From a virus: a stretch of 27,508 nt of DNA. How positions within the stretch are numbered: position 1 is the first letter of the stretch; each line of letters starts with the position of its first letter. The stretch is from positions 1-27,508 of the IMG/VR virus record IMGVR_UViG_3300031565_002986, one strand, 5' to 3'. The position numbers and the translations under genes were made by a program. Of the stretch, positions 1-27,112 are shown one piece after another. The notes beneath the pieces were generated by a model. It did not search any database. It saw nothing but the letters and a program-made list of their open reading frames with translations, and had not been told where the DNA came from.

Positions 1-1420
1 CGATGTAAGCAAACGCATGAACAACGATCTGCCCACCTGTACCCCCTGACGGATCAACAAACCATCTTCCATTGATATGTTCGATGCGGTAGAGACCCGC
101 ACCGTAACTATCCTCCTCTGAGTTGTATATCGTTCTTGTCTCTCCGCTGTCAAGAATCCATCCTGTAAATTGGTCGACTTCGAAGATTCTCTGGGAAGCA
201 ACAGATGATGGAATCCATACGTCGGATGCTGGAACCCGGAACGCTGCACTAATCCCAAACGGGAGATATGCGAACTGATGATGGAACGTGTAGAGGACTT
301 GTAGTTCCCTGCTGAAGTCGGGGAACTCCTGGCCCACGTCAATTGACTTCACCAGAGTCTTGTAAACACCATCCGTTACATCATGGTAATACTCGATCAG
401 ATGCGCATCGGGACATGGTTCGAACGGGATCACTCCGAAGTAGACTGCATTATTCTTTTTGTCATTCGGGAATGACTCAAAGAACAGATCGGATATCTGG
501 TTCCCAAGTGATTGAAGTTGAGCTGAGTAGGTTACTGCACCAGTATGATTTGGGTCGTAGATGTTGTAGACAAAGATGTCTTTGGTTACATCCGGGAGAA
601 CTGGTTCTGATCCAGCGTAGTTGAACGTAAACTCCAAATGATTGTTGACGATACTATTGTCGAGTTGTCGGAACTTAACCCTATTTCTCTTTGGGAGATC
701 GCAGATATCAGATGCCTGATTCTGTTGTTCCCCAAGACGCCTTGCAACATTGGAGTTAACCAGTGAACTGTTGATACCACTGGTGTAACTATTCTTGAAT
801 ACCGAGAACCCCTGCTCTGTCTTGTAGAGACCATGAGATAAGAGATTCAGCACATCGTTCATCAAATCGTATGATGACCCAGAGTTCGGGATCTGCGCAT
901 CCCTGATCATGATGTTGGGATAGTCTTGTGTCCCTTGTAAGACCGGCGTTGCATAGATGTTCGAGTCGAACCATAAGTCCTGTATTGCATCTTCAATAGT
1001 TGTTGCCGCTGATGGATCAGGTGCAAACTTTGGATGTGGAGGAAAGACATCGTAGTCCAGCCGGCGCTCACTTTTCTGGGAAAGAAACCTATAGTCCACC
1101 AGCTTGACGAGTATCGCATCATTGGCTCCATCAGTAGGCCATAAACTCTTGGTACTTTCCATCAGAAGATTACTAATGGTCACCGTCTGATGACCGTCAG
1201 TGATCGTTACCGTGATGTCATTCTTATCGGAGAGTGTGTCCGCATCGGCGCGGGACATAAGAAAGTTACCGAACCCGTAATCCCTTCCGCCCATGTTACG
1301 GAAACCATTGATGTGCAACCCGCTGGCAATGATTGCCTCAATGATGTCTTCGTCTTCGGGGATGTAGCAGTAAATGTCGTTGACTTTTACATAGACGACA
1401 TCATTCGGCGTGGGAGGCAT
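1..1420 (-). CDS. Large phage structural protein of unknown function, cut by the window edge
   Basis: The minus strand stays open without a stop from an ATG at 1420 to base 1, giving at least 473 codons; the C-terminus lies outside the window. I chose this ATG because a GGAG ribosome site sits 10 bases upstream and the next upstream ATG is out of frame. The protein starts MPPTPNDVVYVKVNDIYCYI and is rich in Asp, Asn, Tyr and Phe, with few charged runs, no signal peptide and no membrane segment, as is usual for virion proteins. I do not recognise the family. It follows the portal gene after a 191-base gap holding its own promoter, so it may be expressed separately from the tail operon. A baseplate, tail-tip or other late structural role is a guess from context only. 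Confidence 0.8.
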   Translation of the reverse strand, partial: MPPTPNDVVYVKVNDIYCYIPEDEDIIEAIIASGLHINGFRNMGGRDYGFGNFLMSRADADTLSDKNDITVTITDGHQTVTISNLLMESTKSLWPTDGANDAILVKLVDYRFLSQKSERRLDYDVFPPHPKFAPDPSAATTIEDAIQDLWFDSNIYATPVLQGTQDYPNIMIRDAQIPNSGSSYDLMNDVLNLLSHGLYKTEQGFSVFKNSYTSGINSSLVNSNVARRLGEQQNQASDICDLPKRNRVKFRQLDNSIVNNHLEFTFNYAGSEPVLPDVTKDIFVYNIYDPNHTGAVTYSAQLQSLGNQISDLFFESFPNDKKNNAVYFGVIPFEPCPDAHLIEYYHDVTDGVYKTLVKSIDVGQEFPDFSRELQVLYTFHHQFAYLPFGISAAFRVPASDVWIPSSVASQRIFEVDQFTGWILDSGETRTIYNSEEDSYGAGLYRIEHINGRWFVDPSGGTGGQIVVHAFAYI

Positions 1421-1611: not shown

Positions 1612-2901
1612 TTATGCCGCAACTGAAAGTTTTCGTTTCCCTTTGTCCTCCAAGGACTGCTGACGGTCTTCATCGGATATCTGCTTGGGTGCCTTTCCGG
1701 TTTCCGGGTCAGGCTGATTCTGTTGTTCTTGCTGCTTGAGCATGGATTGATCTTCGTCGTCGTACTCCATGTTAGCAGGGTCAGAATCGAGGGGGTGAGC
1801 CAAGACTTTGAAGGTGTCGTAGGGTAGGAGGCCCAATGCGGCGTTGATTTGCACGCTAGGACGAGCGATCTGCTCTACAAAGTCATATATCAGCCAGTTA
1901 AGCTCTTCCTGCAAAATAGAGTAGAATGCGGTCTCAGGAATGGCTCTCCCCGTAGATGACCCAAACCCCTCATTTCCGCTAGATTCAATCACCTCATAAG
2001 GGATACCCATTGCTTCGAGGATCTCGATTCGGAGGGAGTCGCCGTAATCGAATAGTCCTGCGGGGATGGTATTGCCTTTTGGATCGATATACTCCCATTT
2101 GCGGTTCCCCCTGTTGTCCATGTCCCCAGGGAGGGCCATAACGGCCCCTGTACGCATCTTTTCTACAATTTCCTGTGCTATGTCCTGATAAGCGATGATG
2201 CGTCCTTCAGGCGTTTTAGCGTGTCCTTGGGGGTGATAGATCGTCCCACCAGCGAAGCAGTTCTTGTAGAACCACATCCTCCTGATGTCCCGATACCCAC
2301 CCTCTGACCACATCTCATTCCAGGGGATGTGAGCGCCGACCAGTCTACTACGCCCATAATGAGGGTGCAGATGTCTCCAATGGACGTGATGAAATGCCTT
2401 TGGACCTCCGAGATATACCGCTTTCCCAGGTTCCATTTGTACGGTCTGAAAGTTATCCACCAAGATCCCTGATCGTTTACCGTGCTTGGTTACAATCTTG
2501 ACTGATGGGGATTCGAAATCCTTCAGACCGCTATATGTGATCCGTCCAGTTTTCTCGTCACGCTTGTAAAGGACTTCGTTGCCGGAGTATCCCCACTCGA
2601 CTGCCTTGAGCGCTTGTACTGCGCCATTGAGCCAGAACTCGTTGATCAGGTCGACGACATGTTCTTTGACTTCCGAATTTTCGGAGTCGACCATGAACTT
2701 AGCTTTGGAGAGCATTGGTCCCTTGATCAGCCAGAGTCCGAATGTGACTCTTGGGTCGATCAGCATTTCACGTATGGTGAACTGGGTGAACAGGGGACGG
2801 TTGCGATTGAACAACCAGTAACCGGAATACGCATTGGGGATGTACTCTGTTACGTGGGTACGTAGGAGTTCATTTGGATCAACGTAGGTTTGTGCGCTCA
2901 T
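1612..2901 (-). CDS. Phage portal protein
   Basis: The 429-residue product has the hallmarks of a portal, the dodecameric ring at the capsid vertex through which the terminase drives DNA. An N-terminal region has IREMLIDPRV (43-52), followed by a mixed core. The short motif YGRSRL (182-187) precedes an amphipathic segment, MRTGAVMALPGD is at 249-260, and a helical C-terminal half contains EILEAMGIPYEVIES (293-307). The last 50 residues are charged and Gln-rich, as is usual for portal tails. The start ATG overlaps the stop of the frameshifted tail chaperone by ATGA, so the two are translationally coupled. Its place is odd: portals usually follow the terminase, but here it lies about 22 kb downstream, at the end of the tail genes. 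Recognition is by eye, from portal-like motifs and length. Confidence 0.85.
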   Translation of the reverse strand: MSAQTYVDPNELLRTHVTEYIPNAYSGYWLFNRNRPLFTQFTIREMLIDPRVTFGLWLIKGPMLSKAKFMVDSENSEVKEHVVDLINEFWLNGAVQALKAVEWGYSGNEVLYKRDEKTGRITYSGLKDFESPSVKIVTKHGKRSGILVDNFQTVQMEPGKAVYLGGPKAFHHVHWRHLHPHYGRSRLVGAHIPWNEMWSEGGYRDIRRMWFYKNCFAGGTIYHPQGHAKTPEGRIIAYQDIAQEIVEKMRTGAVMALPGDMDNRGNRKWEYIDPKGNTIPAGLFDYGDSLRIEILEAMGIPYEVIESSGNEGFGSSTGRAIPETAFYSILQEELNWLIYDFVEQIARPSVQINAALGLLPYDTFKVLAHPLDSDPANMEYDDEDQSMLKQQEQQNQPDPETGKAPKQISDEDRQQSLEDKGKRKLSVAA

Positions 2902-3520
2902 TTGATTCGATCCTTTTTACTGTCCTGTAAGATGAAGTGGGACTTCGCCTTGTCTGCCAAGTCCCGGTCTTCAGTTATTGTGTAGACCAGATCATAAACC
3001 CTGTCCTGATTCAACGGTGATTGAATCTGTCTTTCGTTATATTCCTGTCGTGCTTTGATCTTGTCCCGTTGGCTATACAGGATGTGCAGCAGATTGGGAG
3101 TCTTCAATGAGTCAGGAATAATCTGAACTCCCAGTTCTGCTACGAGATCAGTTAACCATCTGTACTTTTTTTTTGCTCTGCAAACTTGAAGAAGATCACG
3201 TTTGCCATTCTGTAAGCTGCGACTTCGTTGACCTGTACGTTGTACTTGCGGGTCAGGGCCGAAGCGAACAGTGGCATGTAATCTCCATCTTCCTTTGTCT
3301 CTCCCTGTGCTACGAGCGCCATCCGGTGGAGAGTGCATACGTGTCCTTCGACTTCACCGATAAGTGATCCGTCATCACCCCTGATCTTGAATACAAGGAT
3401 GTCATCATCACTTTCGATATCGAAGATGTTGTCGGCATCAATCTTCCCGTTTGTTATCTTTGGTTTCGCAGGTTGTTTCCGTCGCACTGGTTTCTTTCTT
3501 CGCACTGGTTTCTTTTTCAT
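2898..3520 (-). CDS. Tail assembly chaperone, long form made by -1 frameshift (gpGT-like)
   Basis: A -1 slip on the A9 run at 3174-3166 would join the first 118 residues of the 3520 frame to 89 residues of the overlapping frame, giving about 207 residues. The shifted part begins KYRWLTDLVAELGV and ends SKKDRIK at 2898. This is the arrangement of the lambda G/GT pair and of most long-tailed phages, where the long form coats the tape measure and recruits tail tube subunits. The shifted frame lacks a good start of its own; its first ATG at 3338 is deep inside the upstream frame with no clear ribosome site. The stop overlaps the portal start by four bases. The arrangement is well known in the family; the slip itself is inferred from the sequence. 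Confidence 0.8.
3152..3520 (-). CDS. Tail assembly chaperone, short form (gpG-like)
   Basis: This 122-residue protein starts with a strikingly basic arm, MKKKPVRRKKPVRRKQPAKP, holding a KKPVRRK duplication. It continues into an acidic globular part and ends just after the slippery run with SKKSTDG-type codons read in the zero frame. An AGGAG ribosome site lies 6 bases before the ATG. In long-tailed phages the short form is the more abundant chaperone that keeps the tape measure soluble before tube assembly. It lies downstream of the tape-measure-like and large structural genes, whereas the usual order puts it directly between tube and tape measure. The assignment rests on the frameshift architecture rather than on a recognised protein family. 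Confidence 0.75.
   Translation of the reverse strand: MKKKPVRRKKPVRRKQPAKPKITNGKIDADNIFDIESDDDILVFKIRGDDGSLIGEVEGHVCTLHRMALVAQGETKEDGDYMPLFASALTRKYNVQVNEVAAYRMANVIFFKFAEQKKSTDG
3166..3174 (-). promoter_or_regulatory. Programmed -1 ribosomal frameshift site (A9 run)
   Basis: On the minus strand the zero-frame codons are GAG CAA AAA AAA AGT, followed 9 bases later by a TAA stop. The nine consecutive A residues contain the classic slippery heptamer A AAA AAA. A -1 slip gives AAA AAA AAG TAC and opens 89 more codons. I did not find an obvious strong stem-loop just downstream by eye; long A runs can slip without one. Confidence 0.8.
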
Positions 3521-3536
3521 CTTAGACTCCTAGAAA

Positions 3537-5303
3537 TTATTGATAGTATCCTGGTTCTCCAGTTCCCTCTTTACCTCGACCTTCAAGGTCGCCTTCGGGA
3601 GTTCCAAGAATTGCATAAGTGATCTCCCATGTGGTAACAATCACAGGGCAGTTTCCGAAGGACGACATAACTCTTGAGCTGAAGTGACTCTGGTTGTCAA
3701 GTTGTTTCACTTTCTTCCCACCAATCACATCATGCTGAGGTGGGTTAGTTGGATACCCAAGACGGATTGCGTATCCTTTCATTGTGATTGTGAAGTCATC
3801 GTTTCCGAAGTCCTGTTCGAAAAAGTCAGCTCCAGATATATCCTGATTGTGCCGCTGGTCAAGTTCGACAGAAGTTTTCTTTGTATCAGGGTTGTAATAT
3901 CCACGTCTGACTTGATCCTTGTTCCTGTATCGGTTGAATACTTTTCTTCCTTCCTTGGTGTTAACGTAGTAGGCATTCTGCATGTCAATCCATGACTGAT
4001 CCTCTGGAGGACAATCGTTGTCGAACACCCCGACAATGTATATGGGCTCTCTGAAGGCTCTTGATGATTGGGGTATGTTATATTCGACGCTTGCACTACA
4101 AGAGGTTTTTGGGTTCTCGCTATTAGAGTTCCCTTCTTCCAACAGCGGGTATGCGCCGTCCGGGTTCTGTGCATTGTTCCGTATGTCGGTAGTCCATAAC
4201 AACCATGACGTGTTGGAAGTTACAGGTTTGAACATTCCGGCAGCACGAATCGCATCTTTAATTGCATCTACTGTGGATACCCATTTCACAGAGAATGAGA
4301 CTTCGTTTGCAAACATGCTCTCCCGTATTTCAAGGGAAAGAATAATTGGAATCTTGTATTCAGTTATTAACTCTCCTAATATCCATCTTGTAATCGGATC
4401 TGGAATACCCTGATTGATTCTCTCCGATGCGATGTAACCGAAGATTGCCCATGCCTGAACCTTTGGTACTTCGGGTCTTAGTTTGATGGTACAATCCATT
4501 GTATTCGTCCACCGTTTGAACCCGACCGCAAATGGATCTCCCGCAAGAAGTTTCGAACCCATTGCATGATTGCATTCAATATCGACAACACCGGAAGGGT
4601 AGACGTTATCCGATTCAATTTCGGTGTATGTCAAGGTAAACTCGCAGGATAGATCATCAGGGGAGAAAACATAGTCTTGCTCCAAGTGATAACCAGCCAT
4701 TGATTCTGGTCCGAGGAGTCTGTAGACGAATCCTCTGAAACCCTTTGATATTCCCCCCGTACCAGGTTTTGCTCTCTTCTCTATGTATCCTTTACGGGTT
4801 AGCGTTTGGTAACCACTCTTATTTATCTTGATGCTTGACGTTACCCAGAACTCAGTTATAGAGTGATAAGAACCACCACCTTCTATGCACTCAGCCTGTC
4901 TTGCTGTTATTGCCCACACAACTCTTGCTGCTTTGAATCCTCCCATTGTTTCGTACAGTAGTATTTGTGGTTTCGGTCCCCAATCAACAGTATGGTTGTT
5001 CGGTGTTGTGTTGAACTGAAATAGTTTTCCGAATCCCCTGTCCCTGAACTGGAGAGGCTTACCCGATTGGAGAAGGGATGTTCTTATCAGTTCAAGAGGG
5101 TTGTCGGTTGAGGGTCGAGCTTCAGCTATCAGATCGAAGGAAGTTGGATAGACGATTGCTTCAATTTCGATCTGGTACTCGATGTACTTGACTGTGGTTC
5201 CCTGATTGTTGTAAATCGGAACTGCCCGTACTGTTGATTTCAGGATGTCATCAATGGTTATCCCGTTGTAGGTAACAGTGGATACGGTGTTTACTATTCC
5301 CAT
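3537..5303 (-). CDS. Large phage tail or baseplate structural protein, unknown family
   Basis: The product is 588 residues with no signal peptide, no membrane segment and no motif I recognise. It looks beta-rich, with many aromatic residues. Two parts resemble each other: VVWAITARQAEC (around 128-139) and VTTWEITYAI (around 560-569), each in a stretch that reads like a tail-protein beta domain, so an internal duplication is possible. The ATG overlaps the stop of the tape-measure-like gene in TAATG, so translation is probably coupled. Lying directly after the tape measure, it is where distal tail or tail-tip proteins usually sit; that role is inferred from position only. Confidence 0.75.
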   Translation of the reverse strand: MGIVNTVSTVTYNGITIDDILKSTVRAVPIYNNQGTTVKYIEYQIEIEAIVYPTSFDLIAEARPSTDNPLELIRTSLLQSGKPLQFRDRGFGKLFQFNTTPNNHTVDWGPKPQILLYETMGGFKAARVVWAITARQAECIEGGGSYHSITEFWVTSSIKINKSGYQTLTRKGYIEKRAKPGTGGISKGFRGFVYRLLGPESMAGYHLEQDYVFSPDDLSCEFTLTYTEIESDNVYPSGVVDIECNHAMGSKLLAGDPFAVGFKRWTNTMDCTIKLRPEVPKVQAWAIFGYIASERINQGIPDPITRWILGELITEYKIPIILSLEIRESMFANEVSFSVKWVSTVDAIKDAIRAAGMFKPVTSNTSWLLWTTDIRNNAQNPDGAYPLLEEGNSNSENPKTSCSASVEYNIPQSSRAFREPIYIVGVFDNDCPPEDQSWIDMQNAYYVNTKEGRKVFNRYRNKDQVRRGYYNPDTKKTSVELDQRHNQDISGADFFEQDFGNDDFTITMKGYAIRLGYPTNPPQHDVIGGKKVKQLDNQSHFSSRVMSSFGNCPVIVTTWEITYAILGTPEGDLEGRGKEGTGEPGYYQ

Positions 5304-6868
5304 TAGAACAACACCTCAACTTTTCTGTTCTTTGCTGGTCCTTGGAATAGTGGGTTACCCATAAACTCATACAACTGGTTCATGATGTCAGCATTAGCTG
5401 CTGAATCTACATCCCCTGCGGTTAAGTACCGTCGCAATGCTGCCCCAAGTGGTGGGATTATCTTTTCGATTCCAGCTGCCAGCATCAACCATCCTTCATG
5501 AGCTATACGTTGGATTTCGTTATTGACTGACAGTAATCCTTCAACAGTTTTGATCAGGGGGTAAAGGATGTCAGAGAGCAACTTCAAAATGGATGCGATG
5601 CTTCTTTTGATGTCATTCCATGCTGTCAGTCCTTCCTTGAATAGTCCCAACCAGGGACCAGTGGAGATATCTTTGAGATTCTCATTGATCAATCTTCCTC
5701 GACCTCTCTCTCTTTCGATGTCAGCAAGTGATTTTCCAAATTCATTACTTCGTTGCAACATCCTTGAAAACATCTTCAGGTCATTTTCAATCTGTGCGTA
5801 TAACAGTGGTCCGGGGATGTTATCTAAAGTCTTTGCAAATTTTTGAGCTCTGGAATCGAGTATTCGAAATGCAGCTGCGACTGCTATTGTTGCGACAGTC
5901 AGAGTTCCAAGAACTCCTAACAGGATTGAAAGTGTGGTTGTGCCTGCTGCTGCTGCGCCGCCTCCACCTGCTGCAATCAGACCACCACCTCCACCTGCTG
6001 GCGACCGTCGTCGTGGCACCACTGTTTCGAGTGCTGTCCTGGTTCTCGATGCTTTAGTATTCAAAGTCATCGAACCAGCGCGCATCGGATTCGTAGGAAA
6101 TAAAGGCGCAGCGGGAATGTCAACTGATCGGGTTGAACTTGCTGCCTTGGCAGCGCTCCTTACAAACTTTGCGTCAACTGGATCTGATCCTTTTCCCCCA
6201 CCACCGAACAACCCTTTGAACAGTCCCCCCAACTTGGAGAATATTGATCCGATACCTTTTGTGATTCCTGTTACCAGTCCTGATCCGAATCCCAACATAG
6301 CTGACAGTGGACTCTTCTTTCCACCTCCACCTGATGGTGATGGTTGTCCTCCACCTCCTGATCCGCCAGCGCCGCCACCAACAGCCTCTCCTCCTGCGGT
6401 TGCAAATGCGAATTGTATTGGACGCTTGTTGACCAGTGATTGAATGAAGTCAACGGCATGATTTATTCTGCGTCCGAGGTGCGCACGATTGAATGCACCA
6501 AGCATGTCATTGATGAACTTGCGACGTATAGTCGTGCTTCTCTTGTCGGATTGGATTTCATCCTTGACTGCTTTTTCAGCTTCCAGTTGTCTGTTCTTCT
6601 CCTCCTTATTCAATCCCTTCTCGAACTGCTTCTGTTCCCGTTCTGATCTCCTTCGGTCCCTGTCCGCACGATCCAGGTCGGATTGTTTTGATTTCCTTCG
6701 TTGTCGTTCCTGCGCCTCCTGAGCACGTTCCTCTCTTGCCTGTGCTCTGCGTTCAGAGTTAACACGACGCGCAGCACGTTCCTGCGCCTCTTGGCGTTTT
6801 GTTTCGTCGTCACCTTTGACTACCTTGTCACCTGTGCCAACTATCTCGATTTCGATGCGTTCAGACAT
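5303..6868 (-). CDS. Tape-measure-like tail protein
   Basis: The 521-residue product has a very charged Arg/Glu/Gln-rich region likely to form a coiled coil (about 20-110). A Gly/Ser-rich linker follows (about 159-184), then amphipathic Gly/Leu/Phe-rich repeats such as GIGSIFSKLGGLFKGLFGGG (205-224). A second Gly-rich patch (291-308) leads into one strong hydrophobic helix (311-336), and the rest is helical. Coiled coils plus a membrane-inserting helix are typical of tape measures, which set tail length and help DNA cross the membrane. It follows the tail tube gene. At 521 residues it is short; if it measures the tail at about 1.5 angstrom per residue, the tail would be roughly 80 nm. No clear ribosome site precedes the ATG at 6868. 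An internal virion or pilot protein is the alternative. Confidence 0.65.
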   Translation of the reverse strand: MSERIEIEIVGTGDKVVKGDDETKRQEAQERAARRVNSERRAQAREERAQEAQERQRRKSKQSDLDRADRDRRRSEREQKQFEKGLNKEEKNRQLEAEKAVKDEIQSDKRSTTIRRKFINDMLGAFNRAHLGRRINHAVDFIQSLVNKRPIQFAFATAGGEAVGGGAGGSGGGGQPSPSGGGGKKSPLSAMLGFGSGLVTGITKGIGSIFSKLGGLFKGLFGGGGKGSDPVDAKFVRSAAKAASSTRSVDIPAAPLFPTNPMRAGSMTLNTKASRTRTALETVVPRRRSPAGGGGGLIAAGGGGAAAAGTTTLSILLGVLGTLTVATIAVAAAFRILDSRAQKFAKTLDNIPGPLLYAQIENDLKMFSRMLQRSNEFGKSLADIERERGRGRLINENLKDISTGPWLGLFKEGLTAWNDIKRSIASILKLLSDILYPLIKTVEGLLSVNNEIQRIAHEGWLMLAAGIEKIIPPLGAALRRYLTAGDVDSAANADIMNQLYEFMGNPLFQGPAKNRKVEVLF

Positions 6869-6877
6869 CAGGTTGGG

Positions 6878-7390
6878 TTAGCTAATGGAGAAGAACCTGT
6901 ACTCTTCATTCGCAGATATCTCGGTGAGGAATACCTGGAACCGAATCGGGATCATCCTGACGTTGTTGTCAAGGTTTATCCGTGACGAGACTTCAGGGGC
7001 AATGATTGCGTTGGGAAATGTGATTGTCGCGTTGTCAGTGCCAGCCGGAGAACAGGTTGATGCTGTAAGAGCAAGTTCCTGTGCGAACCCGTTATTTACA
7101 GCGAATTGGCCCGTACAATCAACTACACCAAATGTTCCAACTGCGGGAGCTGTTACCCAAGGCCAGAGTGCGGCGTAGAGACCAGCAGCTTTCCACTCCT
7201 TGAGTACCGTCTCAACGAACACCTCCGCACCACGATACACCATGTCAACGATGTTGTCGGAGTATTCTTCGAATTGAACTACGTTACCCTTTTGGGACAC
7301 TTCCCAAAACCATCCTTCATCTGTTCTTCCTAGAGGCTGGCCTCCATAAACTGCGTTGTAATGACCAGCAGTTGCAGCATGAATAGTCAT
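6878..7390 (-). CDS. Probable major tail tube protein
   Basis: The 170-residue product is compact and beta-rich: GWFWEVSQKGNVVQFEEY (26-43), then IVDMVYRGAEVFVETVLKEW (47-66), WPWVTAPAVG and later TFPNAIIAP. This pattern, an early EG/E strand, a 'YRG...V..vL.EW' helix and a late 'PNAI' loop, is common in siphoviral tube proteins. Tubes are stacked hexamers forming the tail channel. The strong ribosome site AAGGAG, 7 bases before the ATG and just after a perfect 7-bp hairpin, fits a highly expressed gene. It lies between the neck genes and the tape-measure-like gene, the expected position. Recognition is by eye; a minor tail protein is the alternative. Confidence 0.65.
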   Translation of the reverse strand: MTIHAATAGHYNAVYGGQPLGRTDEGWFWEVSQKGNVVQFEEYSDNIVDMVYRGAEVFVETVLKEWKAAGLYAALWPWVTAPAVGTFGVVDCTGQFAVNNGFAQELALTASTCSPAGTDNATITFPNAIIAPEVSSRINLDNNVRMIPIRFQVFLTEISANEEYRFFSIS

Positions 7391-7774: not shown

Positions 7775-8383
7775 TTAACCTTCCTCTGGTGGACAGATGT
7801 CATCCGCAAGAACTGTCTGCTTCAACAGGTTACCAAAGTTAAGTGTAAGTGATACTCCTGTAAGTCCGTCACGGGTATCTCTGGGAGGAGAAACCCCATG
7901 CGTCCCGTGGAACCATTCCTCTTCCCTGAATTCAAGTTTGGGTGAGCGGTTGAGAAGGACCAGTGGGTGCATGAATATCTGATGATCAACGAATGTGTTG
8001 AGTACAAGATCGTTGAGTTCCAAACGGCTGTTAAGCCACTGAATGACACTCCAACGATTCTGGATTGCATAGAGTGTACGTTCTGCTACCGCTGCGATTC
8101 CTGTAAGGTTGGTGAGGTAGATGGAGGGACTGATGCGGTCGTAGGGAACTGCTTTGAGTCGTTCAGTGATTGTGATGCTGACTCCCCATATCTCCTCATG
8201 GTATCCATCGTCGGTGTTGAGTCGTGATTGGACTTCACGAATGAATACAGATGCAAATCTGTCTCCCATCATCGGATCGGGTTGACCGTCAGGCATTGCT
8301 TTGCAGTTGTCGGTGTTCCAGTCATCTGGGAGACGATCGTGGATGTACTCAGTAACCCCGGATAGAACTGCAATGTCACTCAT
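7775..8383 (-). CDS. Probable tail terminator or neck protein
   Basis: The 202-residue product has an N-terminal helix typical of tail-terminator-like proteins (YIHDRLPDDWN, 13-23). Beta strands follow (FASVFIREVQSRL and EEIWGVSITITERL), then a helix containing AAVAERTLYAIQNRW. In siphoviruses such proteins cap the tail tube and join it to the head. It begins at an ATGA overlap with the HK97 gp10-like gene and is followed one base after its stop by the next start, so the three genes are tightly coupled. The family call rests on length, secondary-structure pattern and position, not on a diagnostic motif. Confidence 0.55.
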   Translation of the reverse strand: MSDIAVLSGVTEYIHDRLPDDWNTDNCKAMPDGQPDPMMGDRFASVFIREVQSRLNTDDGYHEEIWGVSITITERLKAVPYDRISPSIYLTNLTGIAAVAERTLYAIQNRWSVIQWLNSRLELNDLVLNTFVDHQIFMHPLVLLNRSPKLEFREEEWFHGTHGVSPPRDTRDGLTGVSLTLNFGNLLKQTVLADDICPPEEG

Positions 8384-9135
8384 AATACCCTGTCCTTGAT
8401 ATGATTGATGACTTCCGACATTGCTTTCTCGGTTGCTATACGCACCCAGGGTTCGTAGTTATCAGGAATTACAGGACGTGACTTGTTGTGGTACTTGGCA
8501 TACTCAACGAGTGTACCAATCTCCAGCTTGTTGCCAGTCTGTTTGTAGAGTTGGTTCTTCTTTGGTCTGTATCCTCTGTTGCTGTTGATGGACGGTTCAA
8601 GAGAATCGAAGATCCTGTCAGTGATGCGCATGATCAATACGTTACGATCGCCCAAAACATCGAGTCGTGTTCTAGCCCCCATCTTCTTGACGTGCGCCCA
8701 TGCTATCTTGGCAGCAATCACTTGTGCCTGTGAGTAATTTATCTTGAGCATTAGTTGAGATAAGACTGATGAATACTTTCTTCTCCACTCCGCATCTTCT
8801 TCTGGGGATAGGAGCCCCCTCTTGCGGTCCTTGAATGACGTCCCTGATTGCTTCTTGGTAAGGCCGAACTGGCTTAGTTGTTTTGTTCCGATTGGACGTT
8901 GGGCAATAGTGGATCGGGCCAATGGTTTGAATGTGTTACCAAGGTCATCTGCTCCACCTTCCGAGCGTGCCTTGTATGATTTGTGAATCAATGTAAATAG
9001 CTCGACAGTGAGTGAGGTCCAGAATACCCTTCCGATTCCATGAATGTCCTTTAGTTCACCTGTGATGTAACCGCCGATACTTGCGAACACACGCTTGATG
9101 AAATACTCAGGTCTCTTGGTTCGGAGTTTAGCCAT
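8380..9135 (-). CDS. Probable tail-completion or virion morphogenesis protein (HK97 gp10/Mu gpG-like)
   Basis: The 251-residue product is basic at both ends. It shows features common to the neck/tail-completion family: a helix with FWTSLTVELFTLIHKSYKAR (38-57), GNTFKPLARSTIAQR (66-80), and a late VEYAKYHNKSRPVIP (around 211-225), in which an aromatic, His, Arg and Pro pattern precedes a C-terminal helix. Members of this family complete the tail or join it to the connector. The ATG follows the connector stop directly (TAAATG), and the stop overlaps the next gene by ATGA. The call rests on these motifs and on position between connector and tail terminator. Confidence 0.6.
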   Translation of the reverse strand: MAKLRTKRPEYFIKRVFASIGGYITGELKDIHGIGRVFWTSLTVELFTLIHKSYKARSEGGADDLGNTFKPLARSTIAQRPIGTKQLSQFGLTKKQSGTSFKDRKRGLLSPEEDAEWRRKYSSVLSQLMLKINYSQAQVIAAKIAWAHVKKMGARTRLDVLGDRNVLIMRITDRIFDSLEPSINSNRGYRPKKNQLYKQTGNKLEIGTLVEYAKYHNKSRPVIPDNYEPWVRIATEKAMSEVINHIKDRVL

Positions 9136-9714
9136 TTACACCCAGCCCCAAAACCAACCCAACCCTATGCTCTGTCCAGCGTATGTTCCACCAACACTGA
9201 TCGTTGGACGCACTCTCAACTTCTCAACACCGAATCGTTCATCAACGATCAGGTTAGACATGGATGGGTAGGAATGTTCACGGAGAGGGATGTCGATGTG
9301 AGGGGGGAGTTCCCCGGTTGCCATTGCATCGAGTTCTCTCAACGCTTCGGTGAACATCTCCTCGAAGTAATGTTCATTGCCTCTGCGCTTGGATATGTAA
9401 TGTGCTGCAATCCATGTAGTGCGGGAACAAATCCATCTGCTGTTGGGCATCTCCAACGGGTCGAAGTACCTGCTGATCCTGACAACAACTGTTTGTTCCG
9501 CATCCCTGATGAACTGATTGATTACGAGTTCTTTTTCTGTGAGTCCGTTGGATACGATAATCGTATCGTTGAGGTCATCTAAGATGTTGGTTAATCCAAG
9601 TTGAGCGTAGAGACCTTCGATCAGTTGTTGGGTGGTGAATCCATAGACCGGGACGTAGGTTGTGTAGGAACCCGCACCTCCAACAATCGCCACACCATCA
9701 TTATAAATGGGCAT
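9136..9714 (-). CDS. Head-tail connector (adaptor) protein
   Basis: The 192-residue product contains a helical core with VINQFIRDAEQTVVVRISRY (64-83), then SRTTWIAAHYISKRRGNEHY (97-116), followed by FTEALRELDAMATGELPP. A C-terminal stretch follows with REHSYPSMSNLIVDERF and PTISVGGTYAGQ. Small helical adaptors of this size bind under the portal and carry the neck; the RRGNE and 'SMSNL.VD.R' stretches look like that class. The start overlaps the stop of the long fibre gene in TAATG, so a neck gene is translationally coupled to an adsorption gene, an odd pairing. The connector role is well supported by context with the three following neck genes. Confidence 0.65.
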   Translation of the reverse strand: MPIYNDGVAIVGGAGSYTTYVPVYGFTTQQLIEGLYAQLGLTNILDDLNDTIIVSNGLTEKELVINQFIRDAEQTVVVRISRYFDPLEMPNSRWICSRTTWIAAHYISKRRGNEHYFEEMFTEALRELDAMATGELPPHIDIPLREHSYPSMSNLIVDERFGVEKLRVRPTISVGGTYAGQSIGLGWFWGWV

Positions 9715-20488: not shown

Positions 20489-21667
20489 TTATGCCCCGAC
20501 GTTACCATAGGCAACACATGTTGGGACGTAGAGGACCGGGAGATAGTTATCGAGGAACTTGAGTTCGAATCCGGGAGGGTCAATGATCCTTGTAGCCCAG
20601 TTTGCGAATCCCTGTACTTCCCTTCCAGTAGCCAATACGTTCTCAGCAATCACTTCTGAACCGTCAATCAACCCTTCCCAGGTATCATCCGGGTCCGGGA
20701 GAAAGAGTGCATAGTCATCAGGGATCAACAACGTGTTCTCAGCTACTTCAATCCCATCCGTAGCGCCATCCACAGACAACACACCATCGTAGACATGGAA
20801 TGTCCACAGAGGCATTGCGCGGAATACGACGTCGAAACCGGCATCCGGGATTCCTTCAGCAGACTTATTACCACGACGGCTCAATGAGTCGAATACCCGG
20901 TAAGCCTGACCACCAATATCTTGCAACCCGGTGTTGTTCTGAATATTGACGAAGGTTGAAGAGTTGACCCAGATGTGACGCAAAGGCCGACCGTGCATTC
21001 GGGTCATTGCCTTATTGATCGCGTAGCACTGTCCGAGGATGTCGTTGGAGACTGTTCCCCAGTCATCAAGGATATCCGCACCTGTACCAAGATCGAGTCG
21101 ATCAAGATTATCAGCGGGGATCTGGTAGCTGATCGGGATCGAGCCATCCGTAGGAGAAGCATCGTACTCAATCAACCCATAATTATCCCCACTCGGAAGA
21201 ATATTAAATCCGCCTCTCAGCATCCGGGAGTACATCCATTCCCTCTGATTACGGAACCGTTGGGTCATGAACTTGACCTGACGTTGGACATGCGCCTGAC
21301 CACGAAGATCAACCGTAGATCCAATCTGACCACCAAGGGGTCGAGTCTTATAAACTTCTCCGTCATAGATCACGATGGATTCATGGGACCGCATGAGTTG
21401 AGCGGATACATGACCAATCGGTTTCTTGACAACCCTTCGAGGTCCGGTCTCCGGTGCTCTTGCACCTGAGAACTGACGGGTGACATCAAAGATGTCCCAT
21501 CCAGCGTCCCTTCCCTTCACCGAGTCGGTTGCTGTTGAGTTGTTCCCGGACATACGCCCAAAGAACTGCTGAAACAATGACAGAGGGGTCGAAATTCGGT
21601 TAACGATTCTTGTGATAACCGGACTCTGCATCATCTCAGAGAATGTTACAGCTTGTGTATTAGCCAT
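20489..21667 (-). CDS. Major capsid protein (gpE-like, HK97 fold expected)
   Basis: The 392-residue product fits the lambda gpE-type capsid family in length and layout. An N-terminal helical arm has MMQSPVITRIVNRISTPLSL. An extended segment with GWDIFDVTRQFSGARAPETG (56-75) is followed by RRVVKKPIGHVSAQLMRSHE. Then come a basic helix (RQVKFMTQRFRNQREWMYSR) and a C-terminal beta region with PLWTFHVYDG and FELKFLDNYLPVLYVP. It builds the icosahedral shell. It follows the protease/scaffold and decoration genes, the usual head order. A GGAG ribosome site lies 9 bases before the ATG, in an AT-rich leader. No separate delta domain or maturation cleavage site is clear. A strong terminator follows. 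Confidence 0.88.
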   Translation of the reverse strand: MANTQAVTFSEMMQSPVITRIVNRISTPLSLFQQFFGRMSGNNSTATDSVKGRDAGWDIFDVTRQFSGARAPETGPRRVVKKPIGHVSAQLMRSHESIVIYDGEVYKTRPLGGQIGSTVDLRGQAHVQRQVKFMTQRFRNQREWMYSRMLRGGFNILPSGDNYGLIEYDASPTDGSIPISYQIPADNLDRLDLGTGADILDDWGTVSNDILGQCYAINKAMTRMHGRPLRHIWVNSSTFVNIQNNTGLQDIGGQAYRVFDSLSRRGNKSAEGIPDAGFDVVFRAMPLWTFHVYDGVLSVDGATDGIEVAENTLLIPDDYALFLPDPDDTWEGLIDGSEVIAENVLATGREVQGFANWATRIIDPPGFELKFLDNYLPVLYVPTCVAYGNVGA

Positions 21668-21726: not shown

Positions 21727-22521
21727 TTAGAGTTCTTCTGCAATCCAAAGGCTTCCGTCACCCCGAACAATGTGAATTGATCCGCTGCAAGCCAAAGTGG
21801 TAGCGTTAGCTGCACCAGGGAGTCGGATATTAGAGGAGTTGGATGTGATTGTGATCGCGTCTCCCGTAGTGGTGCTGACGAACTTGTAAACGAGTCCCTT
21901 GTAGGGGACATCCGGGAGGGTAATCACCACATCAGCAGTCCCACCACCATCATCCCAGTGGTAAGCGCGATGACTGTCAGCAGCAATCAGGGTAATCCCT
22001 GCTGTTTGCTCTGCCGCTGTTACCGTGTGAATCTGGAAATCAGGACGAGCAAACATGTACGAGTCATTGAGCATGAACCTCATGCGCAACTGTTCCCGTA
22101 CCAGATACTCAAGAGCATTGCCGGCAATACCCGGAGCAGTTGTTCCGGGGATGATCAGCCGATTGGACAACAGACCACCTCCAACAACGATCAGGCCCGT
22201 AAGCCGGTCAGTGCTGACATTCATCGAGAGCATCGAGCGGGATTCCTTGAGGATACCCCAGATGTACTCGGTCCCATCCTGCGCAGTTGGGTCCCAAACA
22301 AAGAGTTTCTTGGATGCCGTCTGCTGACCGAGCATGAGCCCGGCACGAAGGATGTGTGTGTAACTAGTGTTTCCCGTATCACGGGTTGTTCCGTCGATTG
22401 TCAGACCTGAGATGTACTGCGCTTCGTATGGACCCCACAGGAATTCATTTTCGAAGGTTTCTACAGCAGCAGAAATCCCAGGAACCCGATCCCGACCACC
22501 ATAAGTGAACTGATTAGTCAT
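21727..22521 (-). CDS. Head decoration protein with C-terminal beta-domain extension
   Basis: The 264-residue product lies between protease/scaffold and capsid, the usual place for a decoration protein. The part with YTHILRAGLMLGQ (54-66) resembles the 'LRAGTVLG' hinge of lambda gpD and Mu-type decoration proteins, which trimerise on the capsid surface. Unlike the usual 110-150 residue form it has a further beta-rich domain (about 165-264). That domain has AYHWDDGGGTADVVITLPDV (187-206) and ends SGSIHIVRGDGSLWIAEEL; it looks like a small beta sandwich exposed on the capsid. Such extensions are often proposed to bind host or environmental glycans. The decoration role is well supported by position, the function of the extension is not. 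Confidence 0.7.
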   Translation of the reverse strand: MTNQFTYGGRDRVPGISAAVETFENEFLWGPYEAQYISGLTIDGTTRDTGNTSYTHILRAGLMLGQQTASKKLFVWDPTAQDGTEYIWGILKESRSMLSMNVSTDRLTGLIVVGGGLLSNRLIIPGTTAPGIAGNALEYLVREQLRMRFMLNDSYMFARPDFQIHTVTAAEQTAGITLIAADSHRAYHWDDGGGTADVVITLPDVPYKGLVYKFVSTTTGDAITITSNSSNIRLPGAANATTLACSGSIHIVRGDGSLWIAEEL

Positions 22522-22577: not shown

Positions 22578-23831
22578 CTAGACCGACGTTGTTCCCATGA
22601 TCATGTTGACGATTTCATCAGCACGTTCATCGGTGAGTTGAGTGTTTGAAGTTGCAGGAACCGGATTGGGCTGGATAACAAAGTTTCCTCCACTATCCTG
22701 AGTTGCCATTGCAACCATCGGTTGGTTATCAGGCAACTTGATCTGCACCATCTCCAACGCGCCAATCTGTAGCTCCACCGGCGAAGGTGTTGCTTTGTGA
22801 TCATCACCGAACGACATCGAAGTGATGGACTCGATTTGCGTATTGAAGTTGTTGAACATGTTCTCGTCAGAAATAATCCCTCGATGTCTCAACTGAGCCA
22901 AACGATTCTTCAATTCAGATTTCTTCTGCTCAGTGATGTAAGTCATCAGACCAGAGTTCTGCTGCTGAAGATGGGACATCTCAACTGTAACTGTTTTAGT
23001 TGGTTCAGTTGCAGGTGGTTCTGTAACTGTTACCGGGGTTGTTCCTGCCTCGACAGGAACAGCGCTATTGTTGTTAGACATAACGACAGGAACCTCATGT
23101 AATTGACTATCTTTGGGTGGTTTTGTTACCGTACCACCATCACGGGCTTGCTCACTGAGTTTCTTCTGCGCAAGAGCAGCAAGTAATGCTCTTTGCAATT
23201 CATCCGGCGAAGTTCCTCTGGGAATAGAGATACCCGCTACCTGCTCCAACATCTGGTACAGGTCATCAGGGTTAGCGTCTCCATCATCGAGGATCTGCGA
23301 CATCATGTTCATGTCCATCGAGATCGGAAGTCTGTGTGACATTGAGAGTGCCAATGCACCATCAAGTGGAACGAAATTCTTTTGTCCCGGTTCGATAGGC
23401 TTTGTCACTACTGCGACATGGGTCAGGACATCTTTCCACACTTTTCCAGTGCCGTCGATGAACTCCGGTACTGCATAGATGGATGTTTCCTTGACCGACT
23501 TTCCAATTCTTTTTGCGTCATCATCAACTGGCACATCCAGGATTCCATTGAGCGCTTTTACGGAGTTTCCCTCGGAGTCCGTTGAATCAACCAGTGACAT
23601 CTCCTCCCAGAACCCGAAGTTACTCTTGGACCCACCCATAGCTGTTGTTGGAACTGCTTTCGGATCATGGAGTTCTGGCGCTGGGATATTGAGACCGTCT
23701 TTACGCATCTCGTAATGCTGCTCTGTCCAATGTTTGATCCTGTTCCGGTCGATCAACTGGACCTGTCTACCACCTTTACCATCGCCGGTAACGTAGAGAC
23801 CTTCAGTTAAGATTTGTTTCTCGAATTTCAT
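22578..23831 (-). CDS. Prohead protease fused to scaffold (Mu I/Z-like)
   Basis: The 417-residue product has an N-terminal protease domain of the Mu gpI kind. It contains a His in APELHDPKAV (His55) and KETSIYAVPEF (115-124, possible nucleophile Ser117), followed by VLTHVAVVTKPIEP. After about residue 160 it changes to a Met, Gln and Glu-rich, mostly helical and disordered region, with a Thr/Pro-rich linker (around 255-285, VEAGTTPVTVTEPPATEPTK). A second helical part (about 285-340) contains QQQNSGLMTYITEQKKSELK. That is a normal layout for a scaffold fused behind its own protease. Short AGGA boxes precede the ATG. The stop lies in a 5-bp hairpin, CGGTC-TAG-GACCG. The catalytic residues are inferred by eye. 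Confidence 0.78.
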   Translation of the reverse strand: MKFEKQILTEGLYVTGDGKGGRQVQLIDRNRIKHWTEQHYEMRKDGLNIPAPELHDPKAVPTTAMGGSKSNFGFWEEMSLVDSTDSEGNSVKALNGILDVPVDDDAKRIGKSVKETSIYAVPEFIDGTGKVWKDVLTHVAVVTKPIEPGQKNFVPLDGALALSMSHRLPISMDMNMMSQILDDGDANPDDLYQMLEQVAGISIPRGTSPDELQRALLAALAQKKLSEQARDGGTVTKPPKDSQLHEVPVVMSNNNSAVPVEAGTTPVTVTEPPATEPTKTVTVEMSHLQQQNSGLMTYITEQKKSELKNRLAQLRHRGIISDENMFNNFNTQIESITSMSFGDDHKATPSPVELQIGALEMVQIKLPDNQPMVAMATQDSGGNFVIQPNPVPATSNTQLTDERADEIVNMIMGTTSV

Positions 23832-23926: not shown

Positions 23927-25234
23927 ATGGCTATCAACTACACAACCCTGTTCGGTGATATTGGTGAGGTCGTTCTCGCAGTCGAAGAGATCGAAGCGAT
24001 GATGGTCACCGTTGAAGCGAGACGAACTTCAATGATCACACAGTTCGACACAAGCGGAGTTACACCACTTATCAATCAGATCAACACTACGTTCAACGGG
24101 ATAATCCAGCAGATGGAGTCGATGATCAGTCAACTGATCTTCGTTGCTGATGCAAGACTCAAGGATCGGGAAACCGTATTGGAGCAACTTCCAAAACTTG
24201 TGAGCACCAACACTGACAATGTGATGGTTGAATTGATTTCTGACATGATAACCAATTCAGAAACTGTAAAAGAATCTACTGCCAGCGCAACGCTTTCGAG
24301 TCAGGATACTACCAATACTGACGCAGGTGATCTGATTATCACGAAATTGGTCCCTGGTAATATTGCTCCCGGTCAGGGGTTCAAACAGAACAGATTCCTT
24401 GCAGGTGAGGACAGTGAACTCCCATTGGTGGACACAGTTACAGTAGTATGTACCACTGATTCCCAACAACGCGCTTCTCTGGGAGGAGAGACCTTTACCG
24501 TATCAGGAATCCAGCCTCAACAGCAGACACCGTTTGCCAGCAATCAGGGAGGGAACAGGGGAACATTGTCATTGCGGGTAGGAAACTCAAACAACCGCAT
24601 TACCAACTTCTTCAATACATTCTCGGTCACCGATACCCCTGATGACTGGACGATTGTTGCAGGGACTCCGACAACCGATTTCATGGAAGAGACAACAGAC
24701 ATATTCGATGATGACTCTGCGCTACGGTTCAACTTTGGAACCACCCCCGCTCTCTCCTACAACATCTACAGCATCCTTACTCCCGGAGAAGTCATGGTCC
24801 TGTACTACTATCTCAAGCGGGATGCCACTGCTGCCGGGACATTGACGATGCTCTTACAGATCGACGGAGTTACCATTGCAACGCAGGCTATCAGTATTGG
24901 TGCTGCGCAGGACGACTGGTTCAAGTACAGTTATGTGTTTGTTGTCCCTGACGATATTGGACTCGATGACGGAACCACATTCCTCAAGTTTACATCTGGA
25001 GTTACTACCGCTGATGTTCTCATTGATGGTGGTGTACTGACTCCCATGACCTACTTCGGAGGGATAGGACTTGCAGTATCCAGAGGCTTTGAGAAGTTCC
25101 TGATTGATGATGAATTCATCGTTGCCTACACCAATGATGAAGCAGGGAAGTTCCAACGATTCTTCACAAGAGCGTTCGGTTGGCAACTGCCAAGCATCAC
25201 TTCAACGTCAGAGACGATCAGCGAACCTAGTTAG
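23927..25234 (+). CDS. Virion-associated appendage protein with beta-sandwich domain, only plus-strand gene
   Basis: The 435-residue product has a helical N-terminal part (about 1-120, with EIEAMMVTVEARRTSMITQF and repeated Ile/Met heptads) that could form a trimeric coiled-coil stalk. A linker follows, then a beta-sandwich (about 229-376, with TFSVTDTPDDWTIVAG, VLYYYLKRDATAAGTLTMLL and DVLIDGGVLTPM) resembling carbohydrate-binding jelly rolls. The C-terminus is a mixed tail. No signal peptide is seen. An AGGAG box lies 10 bases before the ATG. The gene runs against all its neighbours, faces the terminase, and its TAG overlaps the terminase TAA in TTAG. A head fibre or capsid-attached appendage is plausible; the role is inferred from shape alone. 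Confidence 0.7.
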   Translation: MAINYTTLFGDIGEVVLAVEEIEAMMVTVEARRTSMITQFDTSGVTPLINQINTTFNGIIQQMESMISQLIFVADARLKDRETVLEQLPKLVSTNTDNVMVELISDMITNSETVKESTASATLSSQDTTNTDAGDLIITKLVPGNIAPGQGFKQNRFLAGEDSELPLVDTVTVVCTTDSQQRASLGGETFTVSGIQPQQQTPFASNQGGNRGTLSLRVGNSNNRITNFFNTFSVTDTPDDWTIVAGTPTTDFMEETTDIFDDDSALRFNFGTTPALSYNIYSILTPGEVMVLYYYLKRDATAAGTLTMLLQIDGVTIATQAISIGAAQDDWFKYSYVFVVPDDIGLDDGTTFLKFTSGVTTADVLIDGGVLTPMTYFGGIGLAVSRGFEKFLIDDEFIVAYTNDEAGKFQRFFTRAFGWQLPSITSTSETISEPS

Positions 25235-26823
25235 TGCCCAATCTGTTTGTACCTGTTCCTTGGCATCACTGTGATCGGGATATCAGAGTATTGAACCGCA
25301 CTGGTCATGAAGTAATCATCAGGTGACCCTGCGTTCTCCCACTTCACATGGTTAGCCGCATGAGCCAACGTATCAATAATATCATCCGTCTCCTGTGGGT
25401 GGCCCTGCCATGTAAAGATCTCTTCTTCCGCATCACCCAACCATGATGGGTTGCCCCAAGGGAACCAGATTCTCCCGGACTTCATCTGTATGATCGAGTT
25501 AGTTGAGTTAACCAATTTGTCCTTATCCTTATGCAACCCCTCGATGTTCATCCCCATCCTTGCTGCAAACTGACTGACACCCTTACCAACTCCATTCTCC
25601 TCTACAATCGCAACTGATGGTTGCCACATCTCGTACTGGTTCCTGAGTTCATCCACAACCTCCGGGATCTCCTCCCTAAACCTAATCATGTGCAAAAACA
25701 ACAAGTTGAAGCATGTTGTCAACGCCCATGTAGAGATCACACTCCATGATGGGTTCTTAACCTTGGTGGGAAACAGATCAACATCCCCTGGTCCTTCCTC
25801 GGACGTCGTAGCGCTATCAATGGTCTGAAATATCTCCTGAATATCTGTACGCATATCCAGACCTCTCCCACTGAAATTTGGGCCCAAGTACAGCAGTTCA
25901 CCCCTAATGCTGTAGTACCTTGCCCAATGCTTCTTGTATCGTGCATTGGCTACAACACCCCACGATCCCTCAACCAGAGCTTCATAGAGTTCAGCGGACA
26001 ACTTCTGCTTGAGTCGTGCTTCGTAAGCCTTGTGATCGAGGTACGGGTTATCCTTGTACGTCGAGGGGATGAAGGGTCTCTTGGGATCTTTTCCAATCCA
26101 CCTGACCTTGACTCCCTTCTCTGCTGCTTCCTCCTCAGTCATGTCAGGACTAATCTTGAACTTCCTTTTAACCCATGCAAAACCTATCCCATCCGGGTTA
26201 CACGTACTACGCATCCTGATCGGGACCATCTTAGCCCACTGGCACAACTGGCAGTTGTCATAATAGATCGGATCATCACCCGCATCCCTCTCCGTATGCA
26301 GGGGACAAACACACTTACGCAATCGAGTGAACAGGTAGTCATAATCACGTTCCGCATGTTGCGTCACTTCATCGAAGTACACACCCTGAACCTCAATCCC
26401 CTGATATCTCGTATAGGCATTACTCTCTCCGATGTACCCAAACTGCACACAAGCATCCACCATCCTCTCCCCTGATGGGCTGAACGTAGGGTAGAGAAAC
26501 TTATGAGTCGATGCTTCATACCTGACCTCCTTGGTTCTCAGGAACGGCATCATCCAGTTCATCATCCGGTCCAAGAGCGCACCACTCTGCTTCAAGTCAG
26601 TCAGAGTCTTACGAAGAATTAAACATGCGTAACCAGGGACAGTGACGTACTCCAGAGCCAAGTCAAGAATCACATCACTCTTACCTCCTCCAAGAGCGCC
26701 ACCCATGAGCGCTTCATCATGAGGGAGCATCTTCAACGCCATCTGCTTCGGGAACGGAGTATGCGGCATGTACTTGTTACGTCGAGGTTTAACAAGTCCA
26801 GCCAATAGATCGAGATCACTCAC
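25231..26823 (-). CDS. terL: Terminase large subunit (DNA packaging ATPase/nuclease)
   Basis: I start this at a GTG at 26823, 8 bases after GGAGG; the longer TTG start would overlap that ribosome site. The 530-residue product has a Walker A P-loop GALGGGKS (42-49), Walker B VYFDE (148-152) and a coupling motif STCNP (206-210). The C-terminal nuclease has candidate acidic residues Asp336 (TIDSA), Glu408/409 (VEENG) and Asp480/481 (ETDDIID). Between Walker B and the coupling motif is a Cys-rich insert, C171-x-C173-x2-H176 ... C191-x2-C194, which could bind zinc. It motors DNA into the prohead and cuts concatemers. It overlaps the preceding small gene by GTGAGTGA. No separate small terminase subunit is evident. 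Confidence 0.92.
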   Translation of the reverse strand: MSDLDLLAGLVKPRRNKYMPHTPFPKQMALKMLPHDEALMGGALGGGKSDVILDLALEYVTVPGYACLILRKTLTDLKQSGALLDRMMNWMMPFLRTKEVRYEASTHKFLYPTFSPSGERMVDACVQFGYIGESNAYTRYQGIEVQGVYFDEVTQHAERDYDYLFTRLRKCVCPLHTERDAGDDPIYYDNCQLCQWAKMVPIRMRSTCNPDGIGFAWVKRKFKISPDMTEEEAAEKGVKVRWIGKDPKRPFIPSTYKDNPYLDHKAYEARLKQKLSAELYEALVEGSWGVVANARYKKHWARYYSIRGELLYLGPNFSGRGLDMRTDIQEIFQTIDSATTSEEGPGDVDLFPTKVKNPSWSVISTWALTTCFNLLFLHMIRFREEIPEVVDELRNQYEMWQPSVAIVEENGVGKGVSQFAARMGMNIEGLHKDKDKLVNSTNSIIQMKSGRIWFPWGNPSWLGDAEEEIFTWQGHPQETDDIIDTLAHAANHVKWENAGSPDDYFMTSAVQYSDIPITVMPRNRYKQIGH

Positions 26824-27112
26824 CCAGTTTCCCTCCAAATGATTGGGCTTTGGCTATTGCTGCCTTGGCGATATTGACTATACCGCTAAACTCTGCAAGT
26901 GTTCCAGCTATTGCCGTTTGGTGCTTAACGATCGCCTCTAACGCTGCTAGTAGTTCAGCGTTGATTGACATCAGTTGCTTGACCGCATCCCGCAAGTCAA
27001 TTTTCGTTTGATCGCAACAGTTTCCGCTATCAATCCAATCGTCCGTCAAAACTCCAATAGCTTCTTGTATTGGCCGATTCTTGCCTTCGCAGTAGATAGT
27101 TAATTCACTCAC
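26816..27112 (-). CDS. Small helical protein before terminase, possible small subunit
   Basis: The 98-residue product starts at a GTG with a GGGGAG box 5 bases upstream. It has a Cys-containing first third (TIYCEGKNRP and DSGNCCDQTK) and then a long Ala/Leu/Ile-rich helical stretch, QLMSINAELLAALEAIVKHQ, that looks like a coiled coil. It lies directly in front of the large terminase and shares an 8-base overlap with it, which is where a small terminase subunit is usually found. It lacks a visible DNA-binding helix-turn-helix, so this is only a suggestion. It may instead be an unrelated small phage protein. Confidence 0.65.
   Translation of the reverse strand: MSELTIYCEGKNRPIQEAIGVLTDDWIDSGNCCDQTKIDLRDAVKQLMSINAELLAALEAIVKHQTAIAGTLAEFSGIVNIAKAAIAKAQSFGGKLGE

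Follow-up and report, generated by a model that had tools for sequence, protein, structure and literature searches.

A portal gene behind capsid and tail genes, next to a predicted −1 frameshift pair, in a lineage of tailed phages from metagenome-derived records

The portal gene of the phage fragment analyzed here (the window, the whole stretch of 27,508 bases) lay far from the terminase gene, after the capsid and tail genes, and directly behind two overlapping frames with the layout of a −1 frameshift gene. This layout was observed in the sequences themselves, and from it we infer frameshifting, a chaperone role for the pair and translational coupling to the portal. The best explanation, which we hold with a probability of roughly 0.7, combines a gene order kept across the lineage, a pair acting as a G/GT-like tail assembly chaperone that would sit behind the tape measure gene, and a normal portal whose translation may be coupled to that of the pair. 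The features of the window other than its plus-strand and variable genes were as follows, in the direction of transcription.

25231..26838, minus strand: terminase large subunit (TerL); phrog_979, E = 3.5e-44
22578..23831, minus strand: protease/scaffold candidate, 417 aa; conserved place between TerL and decoration gene, function from position only
21727..22521, minus strand: head decoration protein; HDPD, E = 2.8e-7, above cut-off
20489..21667, minus strand: major capsid protein; phrog_29, E = 1e-4; homologues of 61–72% identity in G002, G003 and G006
9136..9714, minus strand: head-tail adaptor candidate, Mu gp36-like; Phage_Mu_Gp36, E = 0.001 (below cut-off); phrog_195, E = 0.0075
8380..9135, minus strand: neck protein candidate, 251 aa; conserved position, function from position only
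7775..8383, minus strand: neck/tail terminator candidate, 202 aa; conserved position, function from position only
6878..7390, minus strand: tail tube candidate, 170 aa; weak family matches
5303..6868, minus strand: tape measure candidate, 521 aa; composition; comes after the tube candidate
3537..5303, minus strand: large structural protein, 588 aa, perhaps distal tail; function inferred from position
3152..3520, minus strand: zero-frame chaperone candidate (G-like), 122 aa; open reading frame, 19 members aligned
3166..3174, minus strand: nine-A run, predicted slippery site for −1 frameshifting (heptamer 3167–3173)
2898..3173, minus strand: −1 frame extension (T-like part); ends in the ATGA shared with the portal start
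1612..2901, minus strand: portal protein, 429 aa; Portal_Mu, phrog_113, relatives and an AlphaFold model
2..1420, minus strand: tail hub/tip candidate, cut by the window edge; function from position only

The window is a complete linear virus record (IMG/VR IMGVR_UViG_3300031565_002986), so no sequence extends beyond its ends. It is a fragment of a tailed phage from a diverse lineage, met here only in metagenome-derived records. The sequence-only reading had suspected a little-described lineage, which was borne out by tblastn searches of 50,697 phage records, where matches were absent or distant. The window portal, the window capsid, the capsid of locus L042 and two tube candidates had no match in these records. 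The portals of L035 and L041 matched 3 and 86 records, respectively, at approximately 20–25% identity among the matches listed; most of the best 20 of the 86 carried a portal annotation and came from Bacillus and Gordonia phages, with E values as low as 3e-8. The window TerL matched 1054 records, every one at less than 60% identity and none at 80% coverage. When the window portal was used as the sole query against viral contigs, no match was obtained. First access to the lineage came from the capsid, which recovered seven records; one was a 7.2-kb fragment, identical across capsid and TerL, and the portal was present in three of the remaining six. A search with a portal alignment then gave 25 viral loci and one contig of a Planctomycetaceae metagenome-assembled genome (MAG), the only relative found in a scan of bacterial and archaeal genomes. 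The MAG contig may be a binned virus, and no host is therefore claimed. With the window, the set comprised 27 loci and 22 distinct portal sequences, several records being near duplicates; identity to the window portal ranged from 64% down to 30% among 20 aligned portals. For a lineage with no close relative in the phage records searched, the arrangement of frameshift pair and portal gives annotators a handle on the group.

TerL was identified clearly; the family matches of the capsid, decoration protein, adaptor and portal were weaker, though consistent. Several gene names are those of candidates. The names of the tube and the tape measure rest on weak matches, composition and position. In 6 of 17 members the tube candidate matched phrog_2175 (best E = 8.9e-7), whose sole name is "protein with Ig domain", and one member showed a weak match to Phage_TTP_17 (E = 0.055). 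The tape measure candidate had a charged N-terminal part and a hydrophobic segment at residues 310–337; a similar segment occurred in 8 of 14 members. Proteins of the family were 282–658 aa long, and no Pfam or PHROGs family that would name it was matched. Pfam and PHROGs likewise gave no name for the zero-frame chaperone candidate, the large protein or the hub in the members scanned, and PDB sequence searches gave no match for the tube candidate, the large protein or the hub. The hub candidate was 34% and 32% identical to proteins of 904 aa (G003) and 881 aa (G002). Between the capsid and adaptor genes of the window (14584–19538, minus strand) were a tail-spike-like protein of 732 aa with a pectate-lyase-like domain and a neighbor of 918 aa, neither of which had a relative in the portal loci searched. 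A 257-aa protein between the capsid and spike genes (19549–20322, minus strand), with a start that resembles a signal peptide by eye, also lacked relatives in the portal loci.

The 429-aa protein is very likely the portal, judging from family matches and a structural model. The window protein matched phrog_113 (portal; E = 3.8e-5) and Portal_Mu (PF06074; E = 4.7e-5), in the latter case just missing the curated cut-off (23.3 vs. 23.9 bits). That cut-off was passed in 16 of 24 records, namely in 15 of the 23 virus records, where the match was this portal, and in the MAG, where it was on another contig. An AlphaFold model built from 21 relatives (mean pLDDT 72.7, pTM 0.62) gave 121 PDB matches at E ≤ 0.001 (best E = 3.7e-13), and the best 50 of the 121 were portal, neck, connector or virion entries, as expected of the Caudoviricetes portal fold; TM scores of the top matches were approximately 0.5, with high rmsd. 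A structure prediction that spoke against a portal, named beforehand as a reason to abandon the assignment, was thus not obtained, the model matching solved phage portals. The fold search was required because the PDB sequence search was uninformative: the portal profile gave a single weak match, to an RNA polymerase (E = 0.069), which was taken as chance. Frames of 873 and 844 aa, approximately twice the usual portal length, occurred in L025 (9995–12616) and L030 (9235–11769); by eye, their C-terminal extensions are similar.

Alternatively, the true portal could be another gene, near the terminase and either outside the window or unrecognized. The window ends only 670 bases upstream of TerL, and record G020 had no Portal_Mu match, which leaves room for such a gene. 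Against it, Portal_Mu matches were confined to the portal found by similarity in 22 of the 24 records searched; in the MAG (G028) this portal was matched weakly and a place on a different contig strongly. No second portal near the terminase was found in the virus records with either Portal_Mu or PF04860: the 23 virus records had no additional Portal_Mu place and no PF04860 match above cut-off, and the two sub-threshold PF04860 matches (G020 and G026) both fell within this same portal. Together with the resemblance of the model to portal structures, these results make a portal elsewhere very improbable.

The structural block was long and on the minus strand, interrupted once by a plus-strand gene. 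Every open reading frame named in the sequence-only reading was present, in the stated order of tube, tape-measure-like protein, large structural protein, chaperone and portal, and the distance of about 22 kb given there between portal and terminase agreed with the 22,330 bases by which the portal lies downstream of TerL. As read from the sequence, with several names positional, the order was terminase, protease/scaffold, decoration, capsid, variable genes, adaptor, neck, tube, tape measure, large tail protein, the pair with −1 frameshift layout, portal and tail hub. Thirteen relative records spanning terminase and portal were mapped. In 12 of them the order from terminase through hub resembled that of the window, in answer to the synteny comparison proposed earlier, and the portal followed TerL on the same strand at 12.5–19.4 kb (in three of the 12, G014, G024 and G025, this distance presumes a circular map). 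The plus-strand gene of the window (435 aa, 23927–25234), between TerL and the protease/scaffold candidate, had an opposite-strand homologue at the same place in 11 of the 13 mapped relatives, that is, in 11 of the 12 with the standard order.

Profiles seeded from the window proteins found homologues of the large structural protein in all 26 other portal loci, and of the tube and tape measure candidates in 23 each, and in 25 a hub homologue followed the portal; several misses coincided with cut ends of loci. Because the zero-frame profile missed some records, the frameshift scan served to locate the pair. In G023, the remaining mapped record, the adaptor and neck genes were upstream of TerL and the portal block was on the other strand (L039, L055), with the large protein, pair and portal still together; the large protein was inverted in L044 and approximately 1.4 kb further away in L038. 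The terminase genes themselves varied: the TerL frames of G020 and G026 (L049, L050) were 944 and 912 aa long and carried an insertion, which we take to be intein-like and to lie inside the Walker A motif, and the TerL match of G012 (1743–3233) ran through one TAG.

Among 14 viruses, the tree distances of portal and TerL, a comparison also proposed at the outset, were correlated with r = 0.89. None of the ten gene pairs compared correlated more closely, and the portal is therefore no recent import. Because the order repeats in diverged relatives, neither chance nor a local assembly fault accounts for it. A sequencing or assembly error, that is, a chimeric contig with a false frameshift at the nine-A run, would have in its favor that homopolymer runs are prone to error and that the record is a linear fragment; the identical order and −1 layout in many separate records, and heptamers other than A runs in 6 of the 27 loci, speak so strongly against it that we give it almost no weight.

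What the sequence-only reading overlooked above all is that the gene it called "chaperone" is predicted to be a pair of frames joined by −1 frameshifting. The open reading frame taken there for the chaperone gene (2898–3338, 146 aa) is unlikely to be a separate gene: its first approximately 55 codons overlap the 122-aa frame at 3152–3520 in a different frame, and its conserved part is 2898–3173. The nine-A run falls in the last codons of the 122-aa frame, and ribosomes would be predicted to enter 2898–3173 by a −1 shift at this run, from which the conserved −1 frame continues to the portal start. A scan of the 700 bases upstream of each portal required a slippery heptamer preceded by 60 codons or more, together with a −1 frame of no fewer than 45 codons that runs more than 20 codons past the end of the zero frame; these thresholds were chosen after the layout was already known from the loci. 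The layout was found upstream of the portal in all 27 loci (22 distinct portals), and elsewhere on the same strand 17 times in 519,042 bases of loci, overlapping records included. In 21 loci the heptamer was of the A-run kind, and the others had GGGAAAC, AAATTTT or TTTTTTC.

Relative to the called portal start, the −1 frame ended between −43 and +37 bases in all 27 loci, and within 3 bases in 15 of them. The zero frame stopped 111–305 bases before the portal start, so unshifted ribosomes stop short of it. Mean column identity was higher in the −1 part than in the zero-frame part (38% vs. 22%; 19 aligned members), and close pairs differed in excess at third positions of the −1 part; on this sequence evidence the −1 frame is coding. 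RNA structure 3′ of the slippery site had a median z of −0.9 over 19 loci, with no consistent fold. For the window and the three relatives closest to it, z lay between −2.2 and −4.1, and for several other loci it was near zero; a stimulatory structure is therefore not claimed. Strong Shine-Dalgarno-like stretches, at most 20 bases upstream of the slippery site, were present in L039 and L040 (duplex energies of −7.3 and −10.2 kcal/mol, respectively) and may stimulate frameshifting there.

That the pair is the tail assembly chaperone is likely, not proven, and the identification comes mainly from layout, homology being weak. In the G/GT design, a short protein is made together with a form extended by −1 frameshifting, according to PMC5009743. 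All 27 loci had the short frame, the conserved −1 slippery site and the predicted extended product; the pair was not directly before the tape measure gene, its place being after both the candidate for that gene and the large protein. PMC3556154 reports AAAAAAC and GGGAAAC as slippery sites of phiCbK-like chaperones. The zero-frame part had no match to known chaperones by Pfam, profile or fold, and its model (mean pLDDT 88) had no PDB match at E ≤ 0.001; the −1 part had no match to the Niagara extension. A weak Pfam match (E = 0.045, in 1 of 19 members) prompted a comparison with gpE′ of P2 and 186; close to its beginning, the −1 part weakly resembles the gpE′ extension over 15–20 residues. The gpE′ extensions ranked second and third among 327 frames of four phage stretches, above 30 shuffles, with hhalign probabilities of only 9% and 5% and with one unrelated P2 frame slightly higher.

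The same recoding device could instead serve a head or portal assembly factor, the chaperone itself having been lost or gone unrecognized. The pair stays beside the portal even where genes are rearranged elsewhere (G023), and the lack of a chaperone match by sequence or fold fits such a factor too. The combination of short and long products, the −1 direction and the slippery sites are, however, those of G/GT genes; the gpE′ likeness points the same way; and the tube and tape measure candidates of the window are only 9 bases apart, so there is no room for another pair between them. We regard a head or portal factor as unlikely.

With the pair as chaperone, the most probable course of events is that, like its lambda counterpart, it yields two forms of tail assembly chaperone, a short one (G-like) and a rarer, long one (GT-like), from a site behind the tape measure gene rather than before it and beside the portal, which would still be the normal head gateway and work with the distant terminase. 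As a less certain further step, some portal translation may derive from shifted ribosomes, because only those reach the portal start. Such a supply could keep the portal scarce and tied to the long form of the chaperone, and ribosomes probably also start directly at the ribosome-binding site of the portal.

The closeness of pair and portal may equally have no regulatory meaning, an account that accepts the same anatomy and denies only this last step; the odds on it are about even. Compact phage genomes overlap genes everywhere, and on this account the portal is translated from its own start. Other neighbors in the window overlap as well (at 8380–8383 and at 5303). The ATGA, through which coupling was first proposed as something that may set the ratio of portal to chaperone, is present in the window at 2898–2901; an ATGA was present in just 6 of the 27 loci, so that what is conserved is not the ATGA itself and is instead the end of the −1 frame near the portal start. 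Weak portal ribosome-binding sites, considered as proof of coupling, were absent: the portal signal was ordinary (median −4.6 kcal/mol over 26 loci with called starts), within the range of the medians of eight other genes (−2.8 to −5.95 kcal/mol). Dependence on shifted ribosomes is therefore unnecessary, and coupling would supplement direct initiation, not replace it. What a meaningless overlap explains less readily is that the −1 frame ends near the portal start in every locus, when the unshifted frame stops well before it, and that this closeness is kept although other parts of the order vary (G023, L044).

A stronger form, in which one frameshift site sets two doses, the ratio of short to long chaperone and a portal limited to few copies per particle, seems to us doubtful. 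If true, it would link head initiation to tail assembly at a single site. With this arrangement, the idea that recoding can control the dose of a portal could be put to a natural test.

Annotators commonly expect the portal gene beside the terminase gene and the chaperone gene before the tape measure gene. The claim that the window departs from the usual order held against the four phages checked for both rules, Andromeda, Niagara, Felix O1 and PAK_P1, all with the portal by the terminase and an annotated chaperone before the tape measure. T4 and T7 deviate from that order too, and separation of portal and terminase alone therefore has precedent. In T4, as in the window, the portal gene (20) comes after the tail tube gene (19); it lies 2.7 kb after TerL and, unlike in the window, before the protease, scaffold and capsid genes, with no adjoining chaperone gene in the stretch examined. 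The order in G023, with adaptor and neck upstream of TerL, is reminiscent of that of T4. The T7 portal (gene 8, annotated as head-tail adaptor) is approximately 15.5 kb from the terminase, like that of the window, but it precedes scaffold and capsid, and the terminase comes later. In Gordonia phage UBSmoodge portal and terminase are 1.9 kb apart, and the capsid protease comes after minor tail genes; the portal, unlike that of the window, is still ahead of that protease. Among known systems the portal is close to Mu-like (DUF935) portals such as gp10 of Bacillus phage Andromeda, the L041 portal being approximately 25% identical to Andromeda-like portals; the Andromeda portal, in contrast to that of the window, directly follows TerL, and the annotated chaperone of that phage precedes its tape measure gene.

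The pair resembles lambda G/GT, P2 E/E′ and phiCbK gp93/gp94 in having a short protein and a predicted −1 extended form, and shares both heptamers with phiCbK-like phages. It differs from G/GT systems in following the tape measure candidate, directly before the portal, and in its weak sequence link; in the annotation of P2, E/E′ comes immediately ahead of the tape measure gene. The combination described here, in which the portal gene comes later than the capsid and tail genes and adjoins a frameshift chaperone candidate that itself follows the tape measure candidate, was not found among the papers listed in the literature searched, which included few subscription papers. A lineage that breaks both rules and yet keeps a frameshift gene by its portal would show that the rules, as followed in Andromeda, Niagara, Felix O1 and PAK_P1, are not functional necessities.
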